NCBI GenBank assembly: GCA_004293905.1
Contig: RDZE01000015.1
Location: 248,001 to 312,000, forward strand
DNA from: Cytophagales bacterium
GTDB lineage: Bacteria; Bacteroidota; Bacteroidia; Cytophagales; Microscillaceae
Direction of reading: 5' to 3'
DNA length: 64,000 nt
Shown here: positions 4,953-62,475 of the stretch, piece by piece
How positions within the stretch are numbered: the stretch's first letter is position 1
Layout: each line of letters begins with the position of its first letter
The notes under the pieces: generated by a model
Told to the model about the DNA's origin: nothing
Databases searched by the model: none
Seen by the model: only the letters and a program-made list of their open reading frames with translations
Program-made: the position numbers and the translations under genes

Positions 4953-6608
4953 ATGCCTACTGAAGTAAAATATCATAAAGTATTAGAAAGGCAAATTCGT
5001 AAAGTGTTTGGCAAAGAAAGTGAAATTCCTTCTGAAATTTTTCCTTTGTTAGACCTCATCAGTCGTACTTACATACAATATGATGACGAAAAAGAACTTC
5101 TCAACAATACTATGGACGTAGGCATGAGAGAATTGGCGGAGTCTAATAACACACTCATTTCCCAAAAAATAGCCTTAGAAGAAGCCTACCAAACCCTAAT
5201 CGAAACCCAAAATAAACTTTCCGAAGCAGAGCAGATAGCTTCCCTAATGCATGAAGTTGCCAATAAAAATGACCAACTCGTTGCAAGCGAAGAAGAGCTT
5301 AAACAAAACTTAGAAGAACTACAAACCACTCAAGATAATCTAAAAAACAAACAAAAAGCCCTTAGTGCCGCTTTAGCCCAAAATAAGGCAGTTACTGACG
5401 CGCTTGATAGCAGTGCCATTGTTTCCATTACCGACCTCAAAGGCAATATTATCAAAGCCAACAAAGCATTTTGTGATGTTTCGGGCTATGCCGAAGATGA
5501 ACTATTGGGCAAAAATCACAATTTGGTCAATTCTGGTTTTCACCCTAAATCATTTTGGACAGATATGTGGAAAACTGTTGCACAAGGCAATACTTGGCGT
5601 GCCGAAATATGCAATCGTGCCAAAGATGGCTCATTATATTGGGTAGAGGCAGTCATCAATCCTATCTACAATGACCTTGGCAAAATTCATCAATATTTAG
5701 CCATTCGCTACCTCATCACACAACGCAAAAGAGCGGAACAAATCATACAAGAGCAAAACCAAGCCCTACAAAACAGCCTTGCCGAAGTTACTTCTCTAAG
5801 ACAAAAAAGCGAGGAGGCGCGTCAAAAAACCGAACAACTCCTCAACGACCTTAAATCGAGCATAGAATACGCACACCGCATACAAACAGCTTTTTTGCCC
5901 AAAAAAGAAAGCATGGAAACGCACTTCAAAGAATTTATGCTTCACTATGTGCCCAAAGATATTGTATCGGGTGATTTTTATTGGTTTACTACCCTGCCAA
6001 GCCAAGAGCTAATACTTGCCGTAGCCGATTGTACAGGGCACGGCGTACCCGGTGCTTTTATGACCGTAGTAGGGCAAAATCTTTTAGACCAAATCGTTAA
6101 TAAAGAACATATCAATAGTCCTGCTCAAATTTTAAAAGAATTAGATAAACGTTTATCAAGCACCATTCATAACCAACATGTAGAAAATGAAGGGCTTTAT
6201 GACGGAATGGACATCGCTGTTATAAAATGGAATCCTAAAAAACAAAGTATTTGCTTTGCTGGCGCACGCCGCCCCCTTTGGCTTTTCAACTCCGAACAAG
6301 GCGAAATTACAGAGTACAAAGCCGCCATGTTCCCTATCGGCGGAGGGCAACAATGGGAGAAAAAAGACTTTACGGAGGTGCATCTTGAACTCAGTAGCCA
6401 ATCAGTGGTTTATTTACTTACTGATGGCTATGCTGACCAATTTGGAATGAAAAGAAAATTTACAACCAAAAAACTGAAAAGCCTGCTTACAGATATTCAT
6501 AAAAAATCTTTTGAAGCACAACAACTCATCTTACAACAAACTTTTCTACAGTGGAAAGGTACGGAAGAACAAACCGATGATATACTCATCATTGGCATCA
6601 GAATATAA
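4953..6608 (+). CDS. PAS domain SpoIIE-type PP2C serine phosphatase
   Basis: 551 residues, soluble. Residues 1-60 are a helical N-terminus, about 60-145 a coiled coil, about 148-258 a PAS domain with the FCDVSGYAEDELLGK segment, about 260-305 a second coiled coil, and about 310-551 a SpoIIE/PP2C phosphatase. Metal-binding acidic motifs are intact: VSGDFYW, ADCTGHGVPGA, LTDGYADQ and TDDIL near the C-terminus. Such enzymes dephosphorylate STAS-type anti-anti-sigma or similar proteins. It lies between the FIST gene (35 bases) and the NlpC/P60 gene (10 bases), so the FIST protein may feed its activity. The PAS ligand is unknown. Confidence 0.92.
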   Translation: MPTEVKYHKVLERQIRKVFGKESEIPSEIFPLLDLISRTYIQYDDEKELLNNTMDVGMRELAESNNTLISQKIALEEAYQTLIETQNKLSEAEQIASLMHEVANKNDQLVASEEELKQNLEELQTTQDNLKNKQKALSAALAQNKAVTDALDSSAIVSITDLKGNIIKANKAFCDVSGYAEDELLGKNHNLVNSGFHPKSFWTDMWKTVAQGNTWRAEICNRAKDGSLYWVEAVINPIYNDLGKIHQYLAIRYLITQRKRAEQIIQEQNQALQNSLAEVTSLRQKSEEARQKTEQLLNDLKSSIEYAHRIQTAFLPKKESMETHFKEFMLHYVPKDIVSGDFYWFTTLPSQELILAVADCTGHGVPGAFMTVVGQNLLDQIVNKEHINSPAQILKELDKRLSSTIHNQHVENEGLYDGMDIAVIKWNPKKQSICFAGARRPLWLFNSEQGEITEYKAAMFPIGGGQQWEKKDFTEVHLELSSQSVVYLLTDGYADQFGMKRKFTTKKLKSLLTDIHKKSFEAQQLILQQTFLQWKGTEEQTDDILIIGIRI

Positions 6609-19724: not shown

Positions 19725-20267
19725 TTATACGCGCTTTATGTTAACGGCTAATACGTAGAAAGCTAAGTTTTCATCTATTTCCTTAACATTTACTTCGAGT
19801 TGGTTGTCAGAGGTAAGGGCTACGTGTATGAGTCCAATGCCTGCACCTTTGCTGTCTTCGGTATCGGGTCCTAATGCACGTTGTTGCCTTTTAAATTCGC
19901 GGAGTGCTTCACGGTCAAGAGAGTTGATGGTTTCACACTTCTTGAGTATTTTGGGTACGGCGGTTCGGCTTACAAGGTTGCCTGTCATTACTTTGTAGTG
20001 CTCGGCAGTTTTTACGATGGCTAAAGTTCCTACTTTGTCTTTTCCATCAAATTGGTCGCTTTCTTTGGAGTAATAGAGTACATTTTGGGAAAGCTCCATA
20101 AATATGGCAAATACCTTATTGCCTATGCTCACATTGTCATAGAGCTTGAGTCTTTTACGAATGTTGTTACTGAAGTCAGCCAAAAGCACATTGTTTAGAG
20201 GTCCTTTGTATGAAAAAAGGACTTTTTCTCCATCAGTTTGGTTTTGGTATTCATAATAGTTGAACAT
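19725..20267 (-). CDS. SiaB-like (DUF6272) kinase-fold protein
   Basis: 180 residues, soluble. An FAIFMELSQNVLYYS segment near 70-84 looks like the N-box helix (E-x-x-x-N) of GHKL ATPases, and GAGIGLIHVAL near 145-155 like a G-box. This is the pattern of SiaB-type protein kinases (DUF6272) that phosphorylate a small partner, opposed by a SpoIIE-type phosphatase such as SiaA. Its gene is 6 bases upstream of the XRE regulator. No SiaC (DUF1987) partner lies in the window. The kinase role is inference from family resemblance. Confidence 0.65.
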   Translation of the reverse strand: MFNYYEYQNQTDGEKVLFSYKGPLNNVLLADFSNNIRKRLKLYDNVSIGNKVFAIFMELSQNVLYYSKESDQFDGKDKVGTLAIVKTAEHYKVMTGNLVSRTAVPKILKKCETINSLDREALREFKRQQRALGPDTEDSKGAGIGLIHVALTSDNQLEVNVKEIDENLAFYVLAVNIKRV

Positions 20268-41460: not shown

Positions 41461-43533
41461 TTATATTCTAATTGCTAAAATGAGTATATCATCGGTTTGT
41501 TCTTCTTCTGCTTTCCAATGTTGGTATTTTTCTTCTAAAATTTGTTGCTGTTTTTGGAGTTCATGGGGGTGTATTTCTTCTAAAATTGTTCTGAAATGGC
41601 GAATGGTGAGTTTTCCTTCTTTTCCGAATTGGTCGGCGTAGCCATCAGTAAATACATAAAGCAGGTCGTTTTTTTGGAGTGTTATTTCTTGTTGTGTAAA
41701 TATTTTTTGGTGAAATTGGTGACTTCCAATGGGAAATTTATCGCCTTTGTACTCTTGTGGTGTGGTATTTTGAGCATTGAACAACCAAAGAGGTCTTTTT
41801 GCGCCTGCAAAGGTTAGTTTTTGGGTATTTAGGTTTATTTTTAGGAGGGCTATGTCCATACCATCATTGAGCTTTTTGGATTCTAAGCCTTGTTGTTGAA
41901 GTGTTTGTAGTAGTCGTTTGTCTAACTCGGTGAGTATTTGAGCAGGTGCATAGATTTGGTCTTTGTTGATAATTTGTTCTAATAGATTTTGCCCTACTAC
42001 GGTCATAAAAGCACCGGGTACGCCGTGTCCTGTACAGTCGGCTATGGCAATGATGATTTCTTGGTTGGGCAGGTGGGCAAACCAATAAAAATCGCCCGAT
42101 ACGATGTCTTTGGGTTGGTAATAAAGCAGTAGTTCTGGAAATATTTTTTGGAGTGTTTCTTTTGGGGGCAGTAGTGCAGTTTGGATTCGGCGCGCATAAT
42201 TGATGGAGGCGAGTATGTCATCATTTTGTTGTTCTATAATAGTGAGGGTGTTTTCTATTTCGTTTTTTTGATGAGAGAGTAGGTTTTTGGCTTCTCTTTC
42301 TTTTCGGCTGAGCCTCCAGATAAAAAATAGAAAAAAAATAGCGATGAGTAAGCCTGCCGAAATCCAATAGTTCCAATAGGCTTGTTGTTTGATTTGTAGG
42401 TCTTTTCGTTCTATGATGGCTTTGGTTTCGAGTTTTGTAAGGGCTTTTGATTTCTCAATGCTTGAGAGTGTATCATTGGTTTGTTTGTGTATTTCGAAGT
42501 ATAAGAGTGCTTTTTCATAGTTTTTTTGTTGTTTATAGGCTTTATAGAGGAGGAGAGCGGCTTCGTTAATTTCAACGGGTATATTGAGTTTTTGTGCTAT
42601 TTGTAGTGCTTCTTCGGCATAGGTTATGCTCTGTTGATAATCTTGCTTTTGTATGCTTATATTTGCTAAGCCGTTGAGTGCCGTAATGATTCCTAATCTG
42701 TAACTTATACTTTGTGCTATTTTGAGGGCTTTTTCATAATTTTGTTGTGCTGTTTGCCAATCTTCACGTTCTACGTATAGCCTTGCTATTTCATTTAGAG
42801 TAGATGATATTCCTTGTTTATCTTGATTTTGCGTTGCTATTTCTAAGGCTTCCTGAAAATATTTTAATGATGATTCATATTTTTTTTGAAGTCTATGTAT
42901 TACACCTATATCACTGAGTGTGTTTGAGATTCCTTTTTTATCAAGTGCTTCTTTATAAATAGAGAGTCCTTTTTGGTAGTATTCAAGGGCTGTGGCATAG
43001 TTTTGTTGATTTTTATAAATTACACCTATGTTGGTGAGGCTGGTTGCCAAACCTCTTTTGTCTTTTATTTTTTCTTGTATTTTGATTACTTCTTGGTGGT
43101 ATTCTAAGGCTTTGATTTCATTGCCTTGATTTCGATAAATAATAGCCAGCCCATTGAGTGTGGAGGCAATTCCTTTGAAGTCGTTGTTCTGTTTGTGCAG
43201 GGGCAAACATTGTTCGTAATATTGTATTGCTTGTGCATAGTTTCCTCTTAGGTAGTAGCCTACGCCAATTCTATTCAGAGCCCATGCTTGTCCTTTTTTA
43301 AAATTGATTTTTTCAGCTTTTTCGAGGGCTTCATTGGCTAATAGAATGGTGGTGTCAGGTTTGAAGGTATGGTATTGAAAGGCAATATCGATGAGTGCCA
43401 AAATACGGGTCGTATCTTTATTGTTATTGTTATGGTATACGTTTTGGAGGCTATCTATTTTTTTTAGGTTTTGTGCCTTTGTAGATAGGTAGAAGGAAGT
43501 AAAAAAGATACACAAAGCCCATGTATACTTCAT
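41461..43533 (-). CDS. TPR-repeat SpoIIE-type serine phosphatase
   Basis: 690 residues. Signal peptide or first membrane segment (1-20), about seven or eight TPR units (about 45-370) whose consensus is close to GLAxxLNxIGxIYxxQxNYxxALEYYQKALxI, a membrane helix near 388-408, a short coiled coil, and a SpoIIE/PP2C domain (about 445-690). Metal motifs are intact: VSGDFYW, ADCTGHGVPGA, FTDGYADQ and TDDILI. The TPRs would lie in the periplasm and sense a protein or peptide. The catalytic region shares a 71-base identical stretch with the next phosphatase gene. Confidence 0.92.
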   Translation of the reverse strand: MKYTWALCIFFTSFYLSTKAQNLKKIDSLQNVYHNNNNKDTTRILALIDIAFQYHTFKPDTTILLANEALEKAEKINFKKGQAWALNRIGVGYYLRGNYAQAIQYYEQCLPLHKQNNDFKGIASTLNGLAIIYRNQGNEIKALEYHQEVIKIQEKIKDKRGLATSLTNIGVIYKNQQNYATALEYYQKGLSIYKEALDKKGISNTLSDIGVIHRLQKKYESSLKYFQEALEIATQNQDKQGISSTLNEIARLYVEREDWQTAQQNYEKALKIAQSISYRLGIITALNGLANISIQKQDYQQSITYAEEALQIAQKLNIPVEINEAALLLYKAYKQQKNYEKALLYFEIHKQTNDTLSSIEKSKALTKLETKAIIERKDLQIKQQAYWNYWISAGLLIAIFFLFFIWRLSRKEREAKNLLSHQKNEIENTLTIIEQQNDDILASINYARRIQTALLPPKETLQKIFPELLLYYQPKDIVSGDFYWFAHLPNQEIIIAIADCTGHGVPGAFMTVVGQNLLEQIINKDQIYAPAQILTELDKRLLQTLQQQGLESKKLNDGMDIALLKINLNTQKLTFAGAKRPLWLFNAQNTTPQEYKGDKFPIGSHQFHQKIFTQQEITLQKNDLLYVFTDGYADQFGKEGKLTIRHFRTILEEIHPHELQKQQQILEEKYQHWKAEEEQTDDILILAIRI
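41978..42048. repeat. 71-base stretch identical in the neighbouring phosphatase gene (copy 1)
   Basis: Identical base for base to 44111-44181, including third codon positions, in the catalytic GHGVPGAFMTVVGQNLL segment. The same protein segment in the phosphatase at 4953-6608 uses different codons, so identity is not forced by protein sequence. Confidence 0.85.
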
Positions 43534-43593: not shown

Positions 43594-46014
43594 TTAGAAT
43601 TTAATTCCTGCCACTAATACATCATCGGTTTGTTCCTCATTTCCTTTCCAATTGTGAAGATTTTGGAGTAGTAATCGTTCTTGGTCAGCAAATTCGTAGT
43701 AGCGTATTTCTTGTAGTAGTTGTCTGAACCTTCGAGTGGTGAATTTGCGTTCTACGCCAAATTGGTCGGCGTAGCCATCAGTAAATGCATAGACAATATC
43801 GTCTTTTTTTAGGAAAATCTCTTTTTCTGTAAATTGTTTCTGTTTGTACTGTGAGCTACCAATAGGGAACTTATCGCCTTTGTACTCGGTAGGCTCTATG
43901 TTTCCATTTTCGAATACCCAAATGGGTCTGCCTGCTCCTGCAAAAGTAACTTTAGATTCGCTCAGTTCTATTTTAAGGAGGGCGATGTCCATTCCATCGT
44001 TTATTTTTTCGGATTCTATACCTTGTTGTTGTAGTGATTTCAACAATCGTTCGTCTAATTGAGTAAGAATATGCGCGGGTTGTTGTATTCCATCTTTATT
44101 GATAATTTGGTCTAATAGATTTTGCCCTACTACGGTCATAAAAGCACCGGGTACGCCGTGTCCTGTACAGTCGGCTATGGCTAAAAAAACCTGATTTTGG
44201 TAGGTTGTAAACCAGTAAAAATCGCCCGATACGATGTCTTTGGGCATATACAATAAAAGGAGTTGGGGTACATACGCCTGAATGATTTCTTTTTTGGGCA
44301 GGAGTGCCGTTTGGATTCGGCGCGCATATACAATAGAGGAGAGAATATTATCGTGCTGCTTTGATATTTTTTGGTTGGCTTCGCGGAGTGCTTCTGCTTG
44401 TGTAGAGATTTCTTCCATTTGTTGTTCTATTTCTGAACTTTTTTGTAAAATATCATCTCTTTGGGCTTCTATCTCTTCCATATTTTGGCGTAGTTCTTCG
44501 TTTCTGACGGCTACTTCTTCGTTGGCTTCGCGGAGTGCTTCTGCTTGTGCAGAGATTTCTTCCATTTGTTGTTCTATTTCGTTGCGTTGTATTTTGAGTG
44601 ATTGCGCATTTTCGTTAAGAGCAGTAGCCAAAATGCTGATTTCGTCTTTGGTACGAATAGGCGCACGGATATCAAGGTTGCCTTTGCTCATTTCATTTAT
44701 TTTTTCTACCAATTCCATCACTGGTTTGGCTATGCTATGGGCTATCAGTAGAGAGAGCCCTGCTACGAATAGCGCGGCTATCAGTACGCTTGTAAGTGAG
44801 CGAATGGCAAATGCTCTTACTGGTGAAAAGGCTTCATCGGCATCTATTTCGGCTATCAATACCCATTTTACGTTGGCTATCTCGAGCGGTGTGAATGAAC
44901 TTAGTACATCTACTCCACGATAATCTTTTATGATTTCTGTTCCTTTTCTATTGCCAATGGCTTTGGCTACGGCTTGGGTTCTGATGTTTTGGAAAAGCAC
45001 CGTAGTTTTATAAAATTTGATAAGAGCTATTTCGTTAGTATCTATTTTATTTTTCTCTAATTGGGCTATGAAAGCACTTTCGTCTTCGATGATGAATCTT
45101 GAATCGCTCCGCATTTTATAATCATTGCCCACGATGTAACTTTCGCCTGTTTCGCCGAAACCTTCTTCTTTCCAAGATTTGTTATTTGTCATTACAGCAT
45201 CTATACGGTCTATCGGGATTTGAAACACAAGTGTTCCTATTTTTTGATTGCCTGCAAAAATAGGCGCAGCAATGAAAGCCGCAGGAGCTAAAAAAGAAGG
45301 CAAATAGGGTTCAAAATCGCACATTAACACTTCGTTCTTGATGCCTGAATAGCGTATTTTTCTGAATAATTTTCCTAAGTTGGTATCTTTGTGCGCATCG
45401 GTGAGTAGGCTTGTACCAAAATCTATTTCTTTGGCAACAGAATAAACGATGTGCCCTTTTTGGTCGTCTATCAAAAATATGTCATAATAACCATAAGTTT
45501 GTAAAAAAGTAGCCAAAGTAGCGTGGTACTTTTGATGGGTTTGGTGATAAGGGTGAGGCTGAAAATTACTTTTATTGCCTGTAAGATACTGTGATTGTAG
45601 AAAGATGCTTTTGTAATCTTTGGGTACAATGCTTTGCACCTTAAAAGTATCTCGTTCGTGATGTTCTATCTTGCCGATGAGTTCTTGGGCATAGTATTTT
45701 TGTAATATTTCTATAGTTTGTTGATTGATTTGATTGGGGCTGATGCTGTCAAAACTTTTTTTGAATTCATTCATTGCATCTATCACACTACTGCTTTGGG
45801 CAAAAAAACTAATCTCTTGTCTGATTTGGCGAAAATACTCTTCTATCTTTTTCTTCTTAATTTCGCGTACTGTAGTAAGTTGGTCAAAAGAGCGTTGTTT
45901 GAGCATATCTGCCACATGCTGGTATTCTATGTAAATGGTAATAGAGAAAGGTATTACGCCTACTATCAAAAAATAGAAAAGAAGTTTATAGCGAATTTTA
46001 GAGAATTGAAACAT
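43594..46014 (-). CDS. Cache-HAMP SpoIIE-type serine phosphatase
   Basis: 806 residues from the ATG at 46014; the longer frame starts with TTG. A membrane helix (10-30) and a second near 395-420 bracket a large periplasmic dCache-like sensor. A HAMP domain (about 420-470), a long coiled coil with an internal 49-residue repeat (about 475-565) and a SpoIIE domain (about 575-806) follow. PP2C acidic motifs are intact: VSGDFYW, ADCTGHGVPGA, FTDGYADQ and TDDVL. It should sense an external small molecule. It lies 60 bases upstream of the TPR phosphatase on the same strand. Confidence 0.92.
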   Translation of the reverse strand: MFQFSKIRYKLLFYFLIVGVIPFSITIYIEYQHVADMLKQRSFDQLTTVREIKKKKIEEYFRQIRQEISFFAQSSSVIDAMNEFKKSFDSISPNQINQQTIEILQKYYAQELIGKIEHHERDTFKVQSIVPKDYKSIFLQSQYLTGNKSNFQPHPYHQTHQKYHATLATFLQTYGYYDIFLIDDQKGHIVYSVAKEIDFGTSLLTDAHKDTNLGKLFRKIRYSGIKNEVLMCDFEPYLPSFLAPAAFIAAPIFAGNQKIGTLVFQIPIDRIDAVMTNNKSWKEEGFGETGESYIVGNDYKMRSDSRFIIEDESAFIAQLEKNKIDTNEIALIKFYKTTVLFQNIRTQAVAKAIGNRKGTEIIKDYRGVDVLSSFTPLEIANVKWVLIAEIDADEAFSPVRAFAIRSLTSVLIAALFVAGLSLLIAHSIAKPVMELVEKINEMSKGNLDIRAPIRTKDEISILATALNENAQSLKIQRNEIEQQMEEISAQAEALREANEEVAVRNEELRQNMEEIEAQRDDILQKSSEIEQQMEEISTQAEALREANQKISKQHDNILSSIVYARRIQTALLPKKEIIQAYVPQLLLLYMPKDIVSGDFYWFTTYQNQVFLAIADCTGHGVPGAFMTVVGQNLLDQIINKDGIQQPAHILTQLDERLLKSLQQQGIESEKINDGMDIALLKIELSESKVTFAGAGRPIWVFENGNIEPTEYKGDKFPIGSSQYKQKQFTEKEIFLKKDDIVYAFTDGYADQFGVERKFTTRRFRQLLQEIRYYEFADQERLLLQNLHNWKGNEEQTDDVLVAGIKF
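44111..44181. repeat. 71-base stretch identical in the neighbouring phosphatase gene (copy 2)
   Basis: Matches 41978-42048 exactly. A second shared block follows about 30 bases on (AAAATCGCCCGATACGATGT and flanks, near 42087 and 44217), so the two phosphatase genes share patches of recent DNA identity rather than uniform similarity. Confidence 0.85.
44374..44580. repeat. In-frame direct repeat within the coiled coil of the Cache-HAMP phosphatase
   Basis: A 60-base segment at 44374-44433 recurs at 44521-44580 with one mismatch. The 147-base offset equals 49 codons, so the coiled coil has duplicated in frame; the repeated residues are EIEQQMEEISAQAEALREAN. Confidence 0.85.
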
Positions 46015-46203: not shown

Positions 46204-48318
46204 ATGTTAAAATACATTTTCATTTTTCTTTGTTTTCTTTTTTTAACAACATTTACTTGCAAGGTAAGAGGGCAAATAAATGACGAAAGTGTCAATGTCC
46301 AAAACCCTACCCTCCGAAAAGGTACTATAGACCTCCGCCAATACGATTTTGAGCAAAACCCTACCATAGACCTCAATGGAGAATGGGAATTTTATTGGAA
46401 ACAACTGCTAAATCCTCGTGATTTTGCCAAGTACCCCCTTCCCAAAGACAAGGACTATCTCAAAGTACCTGTTGAATGGTCAAACGCACAAAAAAAAGGC
46501 GTAACAACCATAGGCTATGCTACCTATCGCATACGAATACTTTTACCTAAAAACCAAGAAAACCTATCTTTGCAACTTCCCACTATTGGTACTGCTTACC
46601 AACTATGGGCAAACGATACACTCATTGCCAAACGTGGCACTGTAGGGCGCGAAGTCCATAGCAGTTTCCCCGAATATGTCAATCAGATAGTTAGCATACC
46701 CGCACACCAACAAGAAGTACAATTGGTGATGCAAGTTTCCAACCATAATTTTTTTAGAGGAGGTATTTTTCTCAAAGTAATTTTAGGCAAAAAAGACTTT
46801 CTTACGGCTCGTTATGATAATCTTGTAGATATGGAGCTCTTCCTTATAGGGTGTTTGTTTTTTATGACCATCTATCACCTTATTCTCTATCTATCGCGCC
46901 GTAGCGATATAGCTCCTCTTTTTCTGAGCTTTATTCTTATTTCTATCATCATCAGGTTTCTCATCACAAATGGAGGGGCACAATATTGGCAACATCATTT
47001 TCCCGACACTTCTTTTGAGTTACTCATGAAGTTAGAATACATAGGCTTATACGCCTATATTCCTATGTCTATTCTTTTCATTTCTAATTTTTTCCCTACC
47101 GAAACCCCCTACCCTATTGCTAATATTTTCCATGCAATAGGAATTGTATTAGTAGGTATCACAATTGTTACACCCGCTACTATTTTTCCTCATTTTTTGG
47201 TGGTTATGTATCTTAAGCTATTGTTGGGTTATATTTTCATGGTATATATCCTCATCAAAGCAGCACTGCGCCGCCGCTTGGGTGCAAACATAATGCTATT
47301 GGGTATGGTCATATTGTTAATCTCTGCTATCCCCGAAATATTGCACGACCTGAGCATCATACACCTGCCCTATTTTAACCTAAGCAGTATAGGAATGTTG
47401 GTATTCCTATTTTGCCAATCTATTGTCATTTCAGTTCGTTTTTCACGCGCCTTCGTACAAGTAGCCCAACTCTCTAACAATTTAGAGCAAATGGTGGAAG
47501 AAAGAACAAAACGCATAGAAAAACAAAAACGAATCATAGAAGCCAAAAACGAAAGCATATTAGAAAGTATTTACTATGCCCAAACCATACAAGAAGCCAT
47601 ACTCCCAACCGAAGACGAGTTAAACAATATATTCAAAAATTATTTTGTCTTTTTTCAACCACGCGACATCATAGGTGGCGATTTTTACTACGCACAACAG
47701 TACGAAGACAAAATATTTATCATTGTAGCCGATGCCACAGGGCATGGCGTACCGGGTGCTATGATGAGCATGATAGGCAATACTATGCTCAATGAAATCA
47801 TAGTCCAAAAACGTATAGAAATGCCGCATCTTATTCTGGAAAAACTACATCAAAATATACAAGAAGCCCTCAAACAAGAGGGAAATCAAAACAAAGACGG
47901 TATGGACGTAGCCGCCATTACTATTCACTTACAAACCCAAACTTTGTATTTTGCAGGGGCAAAAAGACCGCTCATTATTTCTCAACAAGGAAATTTACTC
48001 AAAATAGAGGGCGATAAAATCAGTGTAGGAGGCTACCATCTCAAAGCTAAAGACCAAGAAACACTTTTCAAACTTCACCAACACAACTACCAAACATCGG
48101 ACTTGTTATATATTTTTACAGATGGCTATGCTGACCAATTTGGAGGGGAAGATGATAAAAAGTTTCTTTCCACACGACTCTACAACTTGCTCAAAAAAAT
48201 GGCTACCTTACCCATGCAAGAGCAAAAACAAATGCTCATTAGTCATTTTGAAGATTGGCGAGGATACCAACAACAAACCGATGATGTATTAGTGGTAGGT
48301 GTTCAACTTCATTTTTAG
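46204..48318 (+). CDS. 7TMR-DISM SpoIIE-type serine phosphatase
   Basis: 704 residues from the ATG at 46204; the frame extends to a TTG at 46186. After a signal peptide there is a 7TMR-DISMED2-like beta sensor (about 30-190), then seven membrane helices (about 200-400), a coiled coil (about 415-460) and the SpoIIE domain (about 465-704). Acidic motifs are intact: IGGDFYY, ADATGHGVPGA, FTDGYADQ and TDDVLV. DISM domains usually sense carbohydrate-like ligands. Here GAMMSMIGN replaces GAFMTVVGQ of the other phosphatases. It is divergent from the Cache-HAMP gene. Confidence 0.92.
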   Translation: MLKYIFIFLCFLFLTTFTCKVRGQINDESVNVQNPTLRKGTIDLRQYDFEQNPTIDLNGEWEFYWKQLLNPRDFAKYPLPKDKDYLKVPVEWSNAQKKGVTTIGYATYRIRILLPKNQENLSLQLPTIGTAYQLWANDTLIAKRGTVGREVHSSFPEYVNQIVSIPAHQQEVQLVMQVSNHNFFRGGIFLKVILGKKDFLTARYDNLVDMELFLIGCLFFMTIYHLILYLSRRSDIAPLFLSFILISIIIRFLITNGGAQYWQHHFPDTSFELLMKLEYIGLYAYIPMSILFISNFFPTETPYPIANIFHAIGIVLVGITIVTPATIFPHFLVVMYLKLLLGYIFMVYILIKAALRRRLGANIMLLGMVILLISAIPEILHDLSIIHLPYFNLSSIGMLVFLFCQSIVISVRFSRAFVQVAQLSNNLEQMVEERTKRIEKQKRIIEAKNESILESIYYAQTIQEAILPTEDELNNIFKNYFVFFQPRDIIGGDFYYAQQYEDKIFIIVADATGHGVPGAMMSMIGNTMLNEIIVQKRIEMPHLILEKLHQNIQEALKQEGNQNKDGMDVAAITIHLQTQTLYFAGAKRPLIISQQGNLLKIEGDKISVGGYHLKAKDQETLFKLHQHNYQTSDLLYIFTDGYADQFGGEDDKKFLSTRLYNLLKKMATLPMQEQKQMLISHFEDWRGYQQQTDDVLVVGVQLHF

Positions 48319-56701: not shown

Positions 56702-56797
56702 AATGATAAAAAATAAAACAAAATAAGGTTTTTAGATATTCAACATTTTACTTTCAGTCTTTTTACTAAAATATCTTACATCAAAAAGTTTATATAA

Positions 56798-56829
56798 AAA
56801 AAAGACCTTCTTTCGGGAAGGTCTTTTTT
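56798..56829. terminator. Bidirectional terminator after the first winged-helix-like gene
   Basis: AAAAAAGACCTTC (56798-56810) and GAAGGTCTTTTTT (56817-56829) form a 13-pair stem with a 6-base loop and flanking A/T runs. It ends transcription of the minus-strand gene that stops at 56857. Confidence 0.85.
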
Positions 56830-56856: not shown

Positions 56857-57189
56857 TTACATCATCATTTCGCGGTAAGGAGGGAAAAACTCCGTAGCGC
56901 GGTTGATGTCGCGGAATACATCTTCAACGGCTTTAACGCCTTTGTGCGTGATATTGGCTTGGTACATGCCTCCGTTGCCATTAAAATTACCTTGTGCGTG
57001 CATTTGAATAAAATCGTGCATATATAGGTATTTGTAAGCAGATTGGAAATTTTTGTTACTAATGCCTATTTGCATAGCTAATTGTTGAATGTCCATGATA
57101 TAATCAATATCAGACTGGCTTTGACGGTACATTTCCATTAAAATTTGGAAACGATACATTTGATTTTCGTTTACAACGTTCATTTGCAT
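56857..57189 (-). CDS. Winged-helix-like small protein A
   Basis: 110 residues; a second ATG lies at 57183. It is helical for the first 70 residues, with LAMQIGISNKNFQSAYKYLYMHDFI near 36-60 looking like helix-turn-helix recognition helices, then a beta wing (MYQANITHKGVKAVEDVF) and an unusual conserved end FFPPYREM. It is a clear paralogue of the gene at 57601-57936. A DNA-binding role is inferred from the winged-helix pattern only. Confidence 0.65.
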   Translation of the reverse strand: MQMNVVNENQMYRFQILMEMYRQSQSDIDYIMDIQQLAMQIGISNKNFQSAYKYLYMHDFIQMHAQGNFNGNGGMYQANITHKGVKAVEDVFRDINRATEFFPPYREMMM

Positions 57190-57247
57190 ATATTTAAAAA
57201 AAATTTGAAAAGTGTGAATAAATAATTGACTAATATAAAAATTTAAA

Positions 57248-57604
57248 ATGGATTTACAAAGAGTACATAAATTGCTTCAAAATAAGGCTTATGACTTGTC
57301 TTTAGAGGTGGTTTCCTTGTGTAAAGATATTCATCTGAACTATAAGGAAGACTTTCTAACGGTGCGCCTTCTTGAGCGTGCTACTACTGTGGGCGAGCTT
57401 ATTATAGAGGCTGTAACGCATACAGAGCCACAAAAACGGCGCGCTATTTTGGTAGAAGCACTCAGCACTTTGAACAAGGCTCACTATTGGTTTAATTTGA
57501 CGCATGATAGTGGCTATGTAGGTGCTGACAAGTACAGGGCTTTTCACTTTATTCATAGTGATTTGTCTACTATTTTGCAACAATTGTTAGGAGCTAAAGC
57601 CTAA
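57248..57604 (+). CDS. Four-helix-bundle (23S rRNA IVP/S23-like) protein
   Basis: 118 residues predicted to form four helices (about 1-35, 38-62, 66-100, 103-118). The YDLSLEVVSLCKDI and LVEALSTLNKAHYWFNL segments match the S23/IVP four-helix-bundle family found in 23S rRNA intervening sequences and as free-standing genes. It is the only plus-strand gene of the region and lies between two paralogous minus-strand genes, overlapping the end of the second by 4 bases. No rRNA or reverse transcriptase is nearby, so its role is open. Confidence 0.75.
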   Translation: MDLQRVHKLLQNKAYDLSLEVVSLCKDIHLNYKEDFLTVRLLERATTVGELIIEAVTHTEPQKRRAILVEALSTLNKAHYWFNLTHDSGYVGADKYRAFHFIHSDLSTILQQLLGAKA

Positions 57605-57936
57605 AAAATCATCTCACGGTAAGGAGGGAAATAATAGGTAGGCTCTTGGTCGTTGTTATAAACATCTTCTATGGCTTTGATGCCTTTGTGTGTGATGCTG
57701 GCGTAGTAGTGCGGGTTTCCTTGAAAACTACCGTAGCTACTCATGGGGCGTATTTTGATGAGTTCTTCCATGTGTAGGTATTTCCAAGCGGTCATGAAAG
57801 AGCGCAATCCTATGCCTTCGTTGATGGCTAATGACTGTAGGTCAGTGGCAAAATCTACGTTGGCATCGCTTCGTTTGTAAAGTTCCATTAGGATTTTGAA
57901 ACGAATCATTTTTTTTTCAAAAATTAGATTGACCAT
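57601..57936 (-). CDS. Winged-helix-like small protein B (paralogue of A)
   Basis: 111 residues. It aligns with protein A over its whole length, sharing IRFKILMELY against YRFQILMEMY at the start, AWKYLHM against AYKYLYM in the middle, ITHKGIKAIEDVY and the end YFPPYREM. The loop before the wing is longer and Ser/Gly-rich (PMSSYGSFQGNP). It is the last gene of the six-gene run that starts with the SpoIIE phosphatase at 61153, 45 bases after the SpoIIAA-like gene. Confidence 0.65.
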   Translation of the reverse strand: MVNLIFEKKMIRFKILMELYKRSDANVDFATDLQSLAINEGIGLRSFMTAWKYLHMEELIKIRPMSSYGSFQGNPHYYASITHKGIKAIEDVYNNDQEPTYYFPPYREMIF

Positions 57937-57981: not shown

Positions 57982-58434
57982 TTAGTTCTCGATGGCTTCG
58001 CGAATGGTTTCTGTGTTTTGAATATCCATCTGGTGGCAAAGGCTATCGGGGTATTTATTTTTTATTTCGTTTCTTCCAGCTTCTATGGCTTTTCTGAACC
58101 ATAGGTCTTTGGTGAAGAGTTTTCGGTGAGTACGCAGTCCAAATTTTTCGTATATTTTGGGTTTCCAAACCACGTAGTACCATTCCATAGAGGGTTGGTG
58201 AAATACGCTGATGGCTCTTTTGTCGAAAATGAATTTTTCGCAGGGGTATTGTTTTAGTAATAGCCCTTTTTGGAGTAGCAAATTTTTAAAATCCTCGATG
58301 GGTATATAGGGTTGAATTATTTGGCAAATGAATATTTGGGTACGTTGGCTTACGTAGATTTTACCTACTTTGTCTTCGTATTTGAGCTCAAAGCCATATT
58401 CTTGCATTGCCTTTTCATCATCTGTAGTCATCAT
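57982..58434 (-). CDS. SpoIIAA-like small protein of the phosphatase run
   Basis: 150 residues. The pattern resembles the protein at 56101: IFICQIIQ strand, EKFIFDKRAISVF near 65-77, then WYYVVWKPKIYEKFG near 84-98 and a helical basic end. SpoIIAA-like domains are usually targets or competitors in phosphatase-controlled partner switches. It lies 25 bases downstream of the degenerate SpoIIE-fold gene. No conserved phospho-Ser site is visible. Family assignment is moderate. Confidence 0.5.
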   Translation of the reverse strand: MMTTDDEKAMQEYGFELKYEDKVGKIYVSQRTQIFICQIIQPYIPIEDFKNLLLQKGLLLKQYPCEKFIFDKRAISVFHQPSMEWYYVVWKPKIYEKFGLRTHRKLFTKDLWFRKAIEAGRNEIKNKYPDSLCHQMDIQNTETIREAIEN

Positions 58435-58459: not shown

Positions 58460-60046
58460 TTAGATTCTGAAACTAAGTAAAATGAAATCGTCTAAGTTGT
58501 TTTTTTGTATTTCTGTTAGGTTTTCGAGGTTTTCTTTTTGTTCGTTGAAGGGTAGATGTTTTTGTTTTTCTAATTGTGTTTGTAGTGTTTCTATGAAATT
58601 GTTTTTTTCTACACTTTCTTGGTAAAAGGCGGGCAGAAAGAAGTTTGTTCCTTTTCTGATAGGCATGATGGTTTTATTGATTTTTACTTTATGGCTATTT
58701 TTGCCCAATTTCCAATCTTGCCCACTGATGATTTGGAAGTTATCGGCTCTTTGTACCATTAGGTTGAAGCCAAAACCTGCAAAATAGAGTGTAGTATTGA
58801 GCGAATCGATGACGCAAAGGGCTATCTTTATTTCTTGTTCTTGTGAGATGGCTTCGCTTTTATAAAGTTCTTCTATGCGGAAGTGCAATCTTTCGATGAT
58901 GCGCTCAATGTCGATACTGATTTTATTTTCTAAAATGATATGATTGAGTAAAAAATTGAGTGTTAAGGTTAGTGTTGAACTTTGTTGGCTTGTATTTCCG
59001 CAATTCACCACTGCTAAGTAGTTGAGCCCCATTTTTTCGCCTACCCAAAAGAATGAGTTGTGTTGTTTTTCGGGTTGCCAATAGTATGATTGTGTAATGG
59101 CTTTTTCGAGGTCTTTTTGTGAGCAGAATATATTTTGACGTAGTATATCCCAATCGACAGCGGTATTGTTGTTTTTATATTCTGCAAGTATTTGCTCCAT
59201 CGTTTCTCGTTCTTTTTGGGCAAATTGCTGTTGAGAAATGAGCATGCTCTCAAAGTTTTCTTTTTGTTGTTGTGTAACTTGTCTTTGCTCAGCTATGATA
59301 TGCTGTAATTCTTCTTTTTCTTTGCTCAGCGTTTGGTTTTGGTTTTGTAGGTCAGTATTTTTTTGTTTTATACTACTAATTTCTTGTGTTTGACTGTTTG
59401 CTGTGGCAAGTTGTTGCTTGAGTTGTGATAACTCTTGGGTTTGTGTTTTATATTGCTCTACTATTTTTTTAAGCTCATTGAGTTCTTGTGCTTGACCGTT
59501 TGCGGTAGCAAGTTGCTGTTTGAGTTGGGCTATCTCTTGAGTTTGTGTTTGGTGCTGTGTAGCTATTTTTTTAAGCTCATTGAGTTCTTGTGCTTGACCG
59601 TTTGCGGTAGCAAGTTGCCGTTTGAGTTGGGCTATCTCTTGAGTTTGTGTTTGGTGCTGTGTAGCTATTTTTTTAAGCTCATTGAGTTCTTGTGCTTGAC
59701 CGTTTGCGGTAGCGAGTTGCTGTTTGAGTTGGGCTATCTCTTTTTGTAGTTTAGGATTTGTATTTTGTTCATTGCTATCTTGTTTTGCAACATTTTTTGA
59801 GTTGTTTTTAAGTTGTTCGTTTTCTTTTTCTAAATGCGATACTGTGAGTGTGAACATTTTAGCTTGAGCCACTATTTTTTCTTGCAGTTGTTTGTTTTCT
59901 TCTATTATTTCTATCATTTTTTGATGTATAGGCTCATGCATGCCTTCTATGTAGGCTTGTGAAGGAATTTGTGCAACTCCTAAAAGGGTCAAATCTTGCA
60001 AAAATTCTCTGATGACTTTTAGTATAATGATGTCTTCTTTTTCCAT
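58460..60046 (-). CDS. Coiled-coil protein with degenerate SpoIIE/PP2C domain (pseudophosphatase)
   Basis: 528 residues from the ATG at 60046; the longer frame runs into the upstream gene. About 30-300 is coiled coil, with three near-identical 34-residue repeats (ELNELKKIATQHQTQTQEIA then QLKRQLATANGQAQ). The last 230 residues follow the SpoIIE fold in order, but the metal motifs have changed: SGDFYW to NSFFWVG, ADCTGHGVPGA to VNCGNTSQQSS, TDGYADQ to LPAFYQES and TDDIL to LDDFIL. FAGFGFNLMV still matches FAGARRPLWLF. It should bind but not cleave phosphoprotein partners. This is inference from lost ligands. Confidence 0.65.
   Translation of the reverse strand: MEKEDIIILKVIREFLQDLTLLGVAQIPSQAYIEGMHEPIHQKMIEIIEENKQLQEKIVAQAKMFTLTVSHLEKENEQLKNNSKNVAKQDSNEQNTNPKLQKEIAQLKQQLATANGQAQELNELKKIATQHQTQTQEIAQLKRQLATANGQAQELNELKKIATQHQTQTQEIAQLKQQLATANGQAQELNELKKIVEQYKTQTQELSQLKQQLATANSQTQEISSIKQKNTDLQNQNQTLSKEKEELQHIIAEQRQVTQQQKENFESMLISQQQFAQKERETMEQILAEYKNNNTAVDWDILRQNIFCSQKDLEKAITQSYYWQPEKQHNSFFWVGEKMGLNYLAVVNCGNTSQQSSTLTLTLNFLLNHIILENKISIDIERIIERLHFRIEELYKSEAISQEQEIKIALCVIDSLNTTLYFAGFGFNLMVQRADNFQIISGQDWKLGKNSHKVKINKTIMPIRKGTNFFLPAFYQESVEKNNFIETLQTQLEKQKHLPFNEQKENLENLTEIQKNNLDDFILLSFRI
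59471..59745. repeat. 102-base tandem repeat array in the pseudophosphatase gene
   Basis: Copies start at 59471, 59573 and 59675; the first two are 102 bases with one mismatch, the third is identical except one base until it diverges near 59742. Units are 34 codons, so copy-number changes keep frame. A more diverged unit precedes them (about 59369-59470). Confidence 0.9.
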
Positions 60047-60068
60047 AAGGCTTCGATTGGGTAAAAAA

Positions 60069-60353
60069 TTAGAAACTATCAAAGTCAAAATCGTCAAATG
60101 TGGTTTTATCGTCTATTGGAGCTTTGTTGTCCTTTTTTTGTATTTCATTGATAAGTTCTAATATGTGCTGTGGTGTTTGTTTGTTATTAATTATTTGATG
60201 ATTGGTCGGTTGGTTAGTTTTGAGAATTGGTTGAGGTTTGTATGAGGGTTCGTATTTCTCGATGAGATAGTCTATGAGGAAAATAGCCAAGTTGAGGTCT
60301 TCTGACCATTGCATTTTTTCATCGTTTTGGTTGTATGGTTCAGTATTATTCAT
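60069..60353 (-). CDS. Small acidic-tailed hypothetical protein
   Basis: 94 residues from the ATG at 60353, which overlaps the upstream gene by 8 bases (ATGAATAA); an ATG 30 bases earlier is also in frame. A short helix (WSEDLNLAIFLIDYLIEKY) is followed by a Pro/Gln/Asn-rich linker and a TTFDDFDFDSF tail that looks like a short linear binding motif. It may bridge its two neighbours. No family is recognised. Confidence 0.5.
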   Translation of the reverse strand: MNNTEPYNQNDEKMQWSEDLNLAIFLIDYLIEKYEPSYKPQPILKTNQPTNHQIINNKQTPQHILELINEIQKKDNKAPIDDKTTFDDFDFDSF

Positions 60354-61080
60354 TTGTGCTATTGTTTTGTTTGGCTGTTCCATGAATGTGTTCGATGAGC
60401 ATCTCTATTTTATTGAGCAATTTGGTGATGTAGTAGCTATTGGCACTAATTTCAGACATTATCTTCTCGGTATTGATTTGAAAATCGCTGAATACGTGGT
60501 GTAGTTCATTGACTTTTCCTTTCAGGTATTGCACATCTTGAGCGATGGCTTCTTGGTTGGTGTTATTGGCATTTTGTTGTATAAGTTCTTTTATTTCTTC
60601 CCAATGGTTATTGGTATGATTGGGTTGTTGTATTGCGGTGATATTTTGGTCTATATGGTTGATTTTTTCATAGAGTTGTTGTATTTTTTCATGAGGGTTG
60701 TATTGCTCTATATAAGTAGAGAGGTCTTGTGGGCTTTGGTTTTGGTTGAGTTTGTTTTCGAGGCTATTTATAATTTGGCTAAATTCTGTTATTTTGGTAT
60801 ATATTTTCTCGTTTGTTTCGTTGTTTTTATGGATTTCTTTTTGCAAGTTTTCTTGGTTTTGTTTTAGTGCCTCCCAATTGTTTTCATTTGGTTTTATATG
60901 GTTGCTATTTATCTCATAATCAAGTTTTTGATTATCTTTTTCGAGACCTAAAAATTCATCTATCTTTCTCATTTCTGAAGCTACATCTATGATAGTATTA
61001 TCAACGATGTTGAGGTTATCAGTTTTTTGGTTGATAAAGTCGAAAAATTTCTTTTTATTTTGGTATGAATTATTTTCCAT
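60346..61080 (-). CDS. Asn/Gln-rich coiled-coil protein
   Basis: 244 residues, no signal peptide. Two coiled-coil blocks (about 70-110 and 130-225) separate Asn-rich linkers; the composition is strongly Asn, Gln, Glu and Lys. The last helix (about 205-235) contains ANSYYITKLLNKIEMLIEHI. It is the second gene of the six-gene run and lies 72 bases downstream of the SpoIIE phosphatase gene. A scaffolding role is possible but unproven. Confidence 0.55.
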   Translation of the reverse strand: MENNSYQNKKKFFDFINQKTDNLNIVDNTIIDVASEMRKIDEFLGLEKDNQKLDYEINSNHIKPNENNWEALKQNQENLQKEIHKNNETNEKIYTKITEFSQIINSLENKLNQNQSPQDLSTYIEQYNPHEKIQQLYEKINHIDQNITAIQQPNHTNNHWEEIKELIQQNANNTNQEAIAQDVQYLKGKVNELHHVFSDFQINTEKIMSEISANSYYITKLLNKIEMLIEHIHGTAKQNNSTNE

Positions 61081-61152: not shown

Positions 61153-62475
61153 TTATATTTTTATTCCCATTACTAAGATATCATCTATTTGTTGAGCTCC
61201 ATTTAACCATTCTTCTAAATTATTTTCAATGATTTCTATTTGTTCTTGACAGTTTTTTTGGTGTATGTTGAGCAAAAGTTCTTTCAATCTTGATGACATA
61301 AACCGTCTTCCTCTGAGTCCGCCGAATTGGTCTTGGTATCCATCGGAGTACATATAAATAGTATAATCGCTTTGGTCGGAGAGCATTATGGTTTGGTCTG
61401 TAAAGTTTTTGGCAATTTGCCTTTCTTTGTAGCCGCCTACACCTCTTTTATCAGCTTTGTACTCTATGAGTTCTCCATCTTTGATGAGTATGAGAGGGTT
61501 GTGCGCACCTGCATATTTGATTGTTTTTTGGTTTTTATCAATTATGCAAACTGCTGCGTCCATTCCATCATTGTTGTTTCCATCTGCATTTTGCTTCAAT
61601 ATGATATTTAAGCCTTTATCTAAGTAGTTAAGTAATTTGGCGGGGCTTATTGTTTTTTTAGTTCTTGTAAATTCTCTGATGAGGTTGATGCAGAGCATGC
61701 TCATGAGTGCTCCCGGCACGCCGTGTCCTGTGCAATCAGCGGCAATAATGACAATTCTTTCACCCTCTACCTGAAACCAATAGAAGTCGCCTGATACGAT
61801 GTCTTTGGGTTGGTAAAAAATGAATGCGTCTTTGGTGAAACTTTTGAGTATATTAGTATTAGGAAGCATTGCTTCTTGTATTCTTTGGGCATAGTTGATG
61901 CTTGCCGTGATGTCGGAGTAGGCAAGGTCTATTTCGCCGAAAGCGTCTTCGATGATTTTTTTCTGTTGGCTCAGTTCTATTTCGCTTTTCTCGAGTTCTT
62001 TGATGGTAACTTCGAGGTATTGCTTTTGCATTTCTATTTCATCATTGTTATCTTGAAGTTCTTTAATCATCGCCTCGAGATACTGCTTCTGCATTTCTAT
62101 TTCATCATTATTGTCTAATAGTTTTTTGATGGTGGAGCGTAGTTCTTCTGATTGCAGTTTTATTTTTTTGTTTTTTCTTCTGAGTTGTTGGTTTTTTTGT
62201 TTTACTTGTTCTTTTTGTAATTCATTTTCTTCAATGACTTTTGCCATATATTCACTGGTTTGAATGAACATATTTTTTTGTGCTTCTACATATTCCTTCA
62301 AATAATCATATTCGTTTTCTTTTCTTTGTAGTGTATTTTGTGTGTCTTTTAGCTCTATAGACAAAAGATTGACTTCAAGCTCTTTTTCAGCCAATAATGC
62401 ACGTAGTTTTTCTATTTCCTCCTGTTGGGAGGTAGTAGATGCATTAGAATCTAATATTTTGTCTATTTTTGTCAA
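61153..62475 (-). CDS. Coiled-coil SpoIIE-type serine phosphatase
   Basis: 440 residues, soluble. About 15-195 is a coiled coil with two near-identical MQKQYLEAMIKELQDNNDEIE-type heptad blocks, then a SpoIIE domain (about 200-440). Metal motifs are intact: VSGDFYW, ADCTGHGVPGA, MYSDGYQDQ and IDDILV. The start is a TTG at 62475: an in-frame stop lies just upstream at 62487-62485 and no ATG appears in the first 60 codons. It is the first gene of a six-gene run with a pseudophosphatase and SpoIIAA-like protein. Confidence 0.88.
   Translation of the reverse strand: MTKIDKILDSNASTTSQQEEIEKLRALLAEKELEVNLLSIELKDTQNTLQRKENEYDYLKEYVEAQKNMFIQTSEYMAKVIEENELQKEQVKQKNQQLRRKNKKIKLQSEELRSTIKKLLDNNDEIEMQKQYLEAMIKELQDNNDEIEMQKQYLEVTIKELEKSEIELSQQKKIIEDAFGEIDLAYSDITASINYAQRIQEAMLPNTNILKSFTKDAFIFYQPKDIVSGDFYWFQVEGERIVIIAADCTGHGVPGALMSMLCINLIREFTRTKKTISPAKLLNYLDKGLNIILKQNADGNNNDGMDAAVCIIDKNQKTIKYAGAHNPLILIKDGELIEYKADKRGVGGYKERQIAKNFTDQTIMLSDQSDYTIYMYSDGYQDQFGGLRGRRFMSSRLKELLLNIHQKNCQEQIEIIENNLEEWLNGAQQIDDILVMGIKI

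Follow-up and report, generated by a model that had tools for sequence, protein, structure and literature searches.

A plus-strand gene for a divergent four-helix-bundle protein lies between two paralogous minus-strand genes, A and B, in the window (the whole 64,000-nucleotide stretch of DNA analysed). The same arrangement is present in a second genus and appears to have been kept there by selection, indicating that the bundle gene was adopted as part of the A/B locus and is not a random passenger that landed there by chance. As an explanation, which we favor tentatively, we propose a domesticated, locus-private bundle of the S23 family that would be expressed with, and probably controlled by, A/B as part of an operon to which a pseudo-phosphatase also belongs, and would act on a protein of the same module. 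The S23/IVP bundle family is widespread and its function is mostly unknown; members are usually read as accessories of rRNA inserts or retroelements. A selected, charge-shifted, and locus-private member tied to a regulator pair offers a specific example, open to testing, of another role, and the compact module to which it belongs also includes a conserved pseudo-phosphatase.

Gene arrangement in the window

The locus comprises the following features.

56797-56829, minus strand: terminator-like hairpin of the intrinsic type, 3' of A (13-bp stem, -15.6 kcal/mol, then a U run)
56857-57189, minus strand: gene A (P0001), 110 aa, small winged-helix-like protein with the end FFPPYREMMM
57190-57247: A/bundle head-to-head intergenic region, 58 bp, 10.3% GC, candidate shared promoter/operator
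57248-57604, plus strand: four-helix-bundle gene (P0002), 118 aa, divergent S23/TIGR02436 member
57601-57604: bundle/B stop-codon overlap, 4 bases
57601-57936, minus strand: gene B (P0003), 111 aa, paralogue of A
57982-58434, minus strand: P0004, 150 aa, conserved partner gene, no Pfam match
58460-60097, minus strand: SpoIIE/PP2C-fold protein with a coiled coil and no catalytic motifs (pseudo-phosphatase); the stretch analysed was 58460-60052
60069-60383, minus strand: 104-aa gene of the same block, acidic-aromatic C-terminus

A first-pass annotation had described A and B as full-length minus-strand paralogues separated by a plus-strand gene that overlaps the end of B by 4 bases, and both parts of this description were borne out. 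The B query matched a single other copy in the genome, A (47% identity; E value, 3.6e-29), and the reading-frame coordinates agree with the stop codons, with the TAA of the bundle gene at 57602-57604 and the TAG of B, on the minus strand, at 57601-57603, giving a tail-to-tail overlap. The G+C content of the bundle gene (39.8%) is like that of the neighboring genes and thus bears no mark of recent arrival. P0004, the coiled-coil SpoIIE-fold protein, the 104-aa gene, and others share the strand of B and are located upstream of it. A literature search returned no paper that we recognized as describing the A(-)/bundle(+)/B(-) arrangement.

Distribution and history of the arrangement

An A/B profile (A1) made from six sequences matched 11 of 390 genomes of the order, 7 of them at 65 bits or more; the matches in the remaining four were weak (23 to 31 bits) and fell N-terminally in proteins about 205 aa long. 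The A(-)/bundle(+)/B(-) arrangement was found in three of the seven, namely, the genome of the window and two mutually close relatives (G047 and G100) from another genus of the same family. Three further genomes, from three other families (G093, G141, and G158), carry a tandem A/B pair without the bundle, at a spacing of 38 to 78 bp, and the seventh (G168) has a single A/B-type copy beside a transposase. Transposase-like genes directly adjoin this solitary gene (locus L035, 5658-6690 and 6792-7124), which suggests that the pair was lost or rearranged there. In a separate search of the window's family, A/B were present in 3 of 15 genomes, and among 395 genomes of the class there was a match in 2, the genome of the window and G663, which has a single copy. 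The first-pass annotation had suggested a search for the three-gene arrangement and had taken homologous loci that always lack the bundle as the sign of a random insertion; in that search the arrangement recurred in G047 and G100, whose loci carry the bundle.

The annotation had also offered two histories, entry of the bundle gene after duplication or movement of the whole unit. The bundle-less tandem pairs in three other families favor a course in which the gene was inserted into a pair that already existed and the three genes were then inherited together, and we consider it most likely that the bundle entered between A and B when these were already duplicated, with loss elsewhere as the other possible course. 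Trees of the module did not decide the matter. With G158 included, the concatenated module tree grouped the window with G047/G100 (support, 80/83); with G158 left out, it grouped G093 with G047/G100 (82/85); and in a tree of P0004 only, the window joined G093 (87/93). The A/B tree does not settle which copy is A and which is B in G158 and G141, where the copy adjoining P0004 is A-like.

Other origins were rejected. As to a mobile cassette, the interval from A to B in G047 (606 bp) matched once each in G047 and G100 and in none of four other genomes searched, and the short repeats around the interval were of the kind expected by chance. For a plasmid or phage origin there were weak matches alone, one for B among plasmids (Nostoc, 34%; none for A) and one for the bundle among phages; searches of PHROGs and PADLOC likewise gave weak matches alone. 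A Nostoc plasmid encodes a 244-aa protein (locus L113, 4977-5711) whose N-terminus is an A/B-type domain; DUF87 and NurA genes adjoin it. A recent random insertion is rejected on the basis of the conservation in a second genus together with the private orthology and purifying selection described below.

Private orthology and selection on the bundle gene

Genes of the S23 family are common singletons and are present in 9 of the 15 genomes of the family. A profile of the three bundle orthologues found an S23-type match of some kind in 156 of the 390 order genomes, and it scored 204 to 225 bits at three places, all of them between A and B, with the next best match at 62 bits. When the family genomes were searched with the TIGR02436 model, the three orthologues scored 28 to 33 bits and the other 24 matches listed, partial ones included, 43 to 127 bits. 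The orthologues formed one clade in a 40-row tree (support, 96/87), in which long branches call for caution, and in a smaller tree (98/95).

Between G047 and G100, the bundle gene differs at 10 synonymous and 7 non-synonymous positions (Fisher P = 0.0004), and the NG86 estimate of dN/dS is 0.027/0.142, or about 0.19, indicating that the gene is under purifying selection. The neighbors are all more constrained, with one amino-acid change in A, two in B, and one in P0004. Identity of the bundle protein between the two genera is 33 to 34%.

The scattered occurrence of S23-type genes gives some room to a neutral history, in which one such gene was inserted once between A and B and kept by inertia, with an unrelated function. 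The abundance of singletons in the family and order, the three tandem pairs without a bundle, and the faster evolution of the bundle than of its neighbors all accord with it. However, the site and orientation are the same across genera, no other match in the 390 genomes comes near the score of the bundle, and purifying selection acts on it; the loss of family residues and shift in charge reported in the next section further suggest a changed role. We therefore regard a neutral passenger as unlikely.

Family and fold of the bundle protein

The S23/IVP-like identity proposed for the bundle protein from its sequence was upheld. It scored 29.2 bits against NCBIfam TIGR02436 (cut-off, 24; orthologue L011, 33.2 bits) and 27.9 against Pfam PF05635, where the gathering score is 33.8 (orthologue, 31.5), and its profile matched the S23-family structure 2rld (E value, 3.4e-13). 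A monomer model made without an alignment was a confident four-helix bundle (pLDDT, 92.9; pTM, 0.84) that resembled 2rld (Foldseek E value, 1.1e-4; TM, 0.79). In VIA comparisons it matched 2gsc (Z 15.9, rmsd 2.5, 112 aligned) and the Avd protein of DGR ribonucleoprotein structures (8ub8, Z 15.5, rmsd 1.9, 107 aligned; 4dwl, Z 14.0), scores to be read with the tool's own note that chance alone can bring helical bundles to about Z 13.

The family positions YW and GT.xG are kept. At five other conserved positions, the orthologues have changed: Q40 (36 of 37 relatives) is R or K, R43 (33/37) is E, A50 (33/37) is E, N51 (32/37) is L or K, and E77 (36/37) is K. The window protein and that of G047 have other letters at all five, and the letters of G100 are those of G047. 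The exchange of R43 and E77 looks like a swapped salt bridge. The isoelectric points of the orthologues are 5.9 to 7.1, whereas those of 43 relatives have a median of 8.98, with two below 7.1. The tree and the residue counts were based on 40 of 46 rows, as six relatives were dropped by the phmmer similarity filter; these six were added back for the isoelectric points. Loci with internal stops, partial matches, and duplicates were not entered among the relatives. Because family residues are lost and the orthologues are neutral to acidic where the relatives are basic, RNA binding appears less likely for this divergent member of the S23/TIGR02436 fold family, and a changed role is suggested.

The first-pass annotation had tied such bundles to 23S rRNA inserts and remarked on their absence here. 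The second half of this remark stands: the window contains no rRNA and no Rfam family at the gathering threshold, and the bundle gene, flanked by protein genes, lies outside any 23S rRNA insert. The first half fits less well, as the family is common outside rRNA. A search for 23S genes in three assemblies found none.

Proteins A and B

Neither A nor B matched a Pfam or NCBIfam family above cut-off, and no PadR/MarR-type family was listed up to an E value of 1. A low-confidence model of B (mean pLDDT, 59) has the topology helix-helix-helix-strand-strand-helix. Its best structural matches are MarR/PadR-type regulators, with Z scores up to 8.2, which the structural-comparison tool itself grades as middling; the top match of this low-confidence model is LmrR (8qdf, Z 8.2, rmsd 3.5, 88 aligned). 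The earlier label "winged-helix-like" thus finds support in the topology and middling structural matches of a low-confidence model but not in sequence families. Since the topology and the best matches agree, it is plausible that A and B are DNA-binding winged-helix regulators.

The FFPPYREM end, which had been called unusual, is instead the normal end of the A/B domain. TxxFPxYRxM is conserved throughout the A/B family, and its T, F-P, R, and M are invariant across six aligned A/B proteins. Longer relatives have "PTEHFLPFN" or "PTNYFPA" at this position, and there the domain runs on into another region, as a linker.

Partner genes of the module

P0004, putatively STAS/SpoIIAA-like, and the pseudo-phosphatase accompany A/B in G047, G100, G093, G158, and G141; the phosphatase-like identity in G158 and G141 is based on position and alignment. 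When the P0004 family was compared by sequence with solved structures, no credible match was returned. In an alignment that included four active-type SpoIIE domains, the GHGxPGA and DGMD motifs were missing from all six orthologues of the 58460-60097 protein (the window and the five genomes above), and the window protein was not listed by the Pfam SpoIIE model. This alignment indicates a conserved pseudo-phosphatase, so that P0004 and A/B share their module with a non-catalytic phosphatase fold. The window copy has tandem coiled-coil repeats.

Short sequences that look like docking motifs recur in several low-complexity partner genes (60069-60383 and 60346-61080 in the window; L010, 84-536; L011, 6910-7443), namely, an end of acidic and aromatic residues like FDDFDFD, and D(V/I)xxEMxxxDxxF. 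The 64-kb window also holds five SpoIIE-type phosphatase genes with varied sensor parts (4953-6608, 41461-43533, 43594-46014, 46204-48318, and 61153-62475), the last confirmed by Pfam and the other four read by eye, and a gene at 19725-20267 whose product presumably resembles SiaB-type kinases of partner-switching systems.

Proposed explanation and alternatives

The arrangement and its conservation, the private orthology, purifying selection, the fold, and the loss of family residues with a shift in charge are accommodated by the following proposal; the arrangement is known from only three genomes of 390, two of them close relatives. In an ancestor of the two related genera, the bundle gene would have entered between duplicated, winged-helix-like A and B, at the end of a conserved signaling-like block (the 150-aa protein, the SpoIIE-fold pseudo-phosphatase, and the 104-aa protein), and would then have been retained by selection. 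It would be transcribed head to head with A from the 58- to 61-bp region between them. We further infer that A and/or B bind this region, a shared promoter under A/B control, and so set the level of A and the bundle, and that the bundle protein, probably an oligomer like its relatives, may have its binding partner among the proteins of the module and not in an rRNA insert. Xcc0516 is reportedly a five-bundle assembly.

The intergenic regions bear on this control. In the window, A and the bundle gene stand head to head across a gap of 58 bp. In G047 and G100 this gap is 61 bp long and agrees at 61 of 61 positions, within a 190-nucleotide identical run that spans both gene starts. In contrast, the spacer between the bundle gene and B differs between G047 and G100 at 28 of the 187 sites aligned, and the alignment has 31 further columns with gaps. 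However, identity is also complete (48/48) across the 48 bp that separate P0004 from the pseudo-phosphatase gene, which makes the argument from the A/bundle gap a moderate one. A consensus promoter scan was at chance level. The fast-changing spacer, which the window lacks, is 188 bp in one genome and 217 bp in the other (L011, 8896-9083; L020, 9437-9653). GTAC stands at its borders, and its ends resemble weak inverted repeats.

A different reading of the same architecture, possible but doubtful, is a noncontiguous operon, in which A and B would share one minus-strand transcript running through the bundle gene. The bundle mRNA would then be a full-length antisense to the B-A segment, and the two would regulate each other through colliding polymerases and RNase III, irrespective of the function of the protein. 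An opposite-strand gene inside a same-strand block is what such an operon would present, as in menE-menC-MW1733-ytkD of Staphylococcus aureus (PMC7154746). In the window, the overlapping stop codons leave no space in which transcription could be terminated between B and the bundle gene, and the strong terminator-like hairpin follows A. However, in G047 and G100 the spacer carries a small minus-strand hairpin after B, so that read-through may not occur there, and selection on the bundle protein sequence argues that the gene is more than an antisense RNA. A noncontiguous operon thus fits the window, and fits G047 and G100 less well, and we give preference to the domesticated bundle under A/B control.

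A more specific version of that proposal is improbable, less so only than the last reading below: the bundle, formerly an RNA-handling S23/Avd-type protein, would have become a protein-binding anti-regulator that oligomerizes and sequesters A and B, possibly via their TxxFPxYRxM tails. Made from their promoter, it would act as a feedback switch in a partner-switching-like module with the pseudo-phosphatase. Least likely of all is that the bundle serves RNA elsewhere in the cell as an RNA chaperone or Avd-like RNA-binding oligomer, a role suggested by the structural matches to 8ub8, 4dwl, and 2gsc but opposed by its neutral to acidic charge, the loss of conserved family residues, the level that chance matches of helical bundles can reach, and the lack of any Rfam family in the window at the gathering threshold.

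Comparison with known systems

A and B are like PadR/MarR-type regulators in predicted topology and best structural matches (LmrR), but they have an ending of their own, TxxFPxYRxM, and no sequence-family match, and the model is of low confidence. With the S23, or 23S rRNA-intervening-sequence-protein, family (TIGR02436, PF05635; 2rld, 2gsc), the bundle shares the four-helix fold and the YW and GT.xG positions; it differs in scoring below the Pfam gathering score, lying outside an rRNA gene, lacking R43, A50, N51, and E77, being neutral to acidic, and being private to one locus. Avd, the accessory protein of diversity-generating retroelements, is described in PMC10053308 as homologous to PF05635. 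The bundle shares its fold (VIA Z, 14 to 15.5), but the bundle protein is not basic and the identity is 14%. In the S. aureus menE-menC-MW1733-ytkD locus, described as a noncontiguous operon (PMC7154746), an opposite-strand gene lies within a block of same-strand genes, as in the window; co-transcription and antisense control would be putative for the present locus, and in the other genus a hairpin-bearing spacer follows B.
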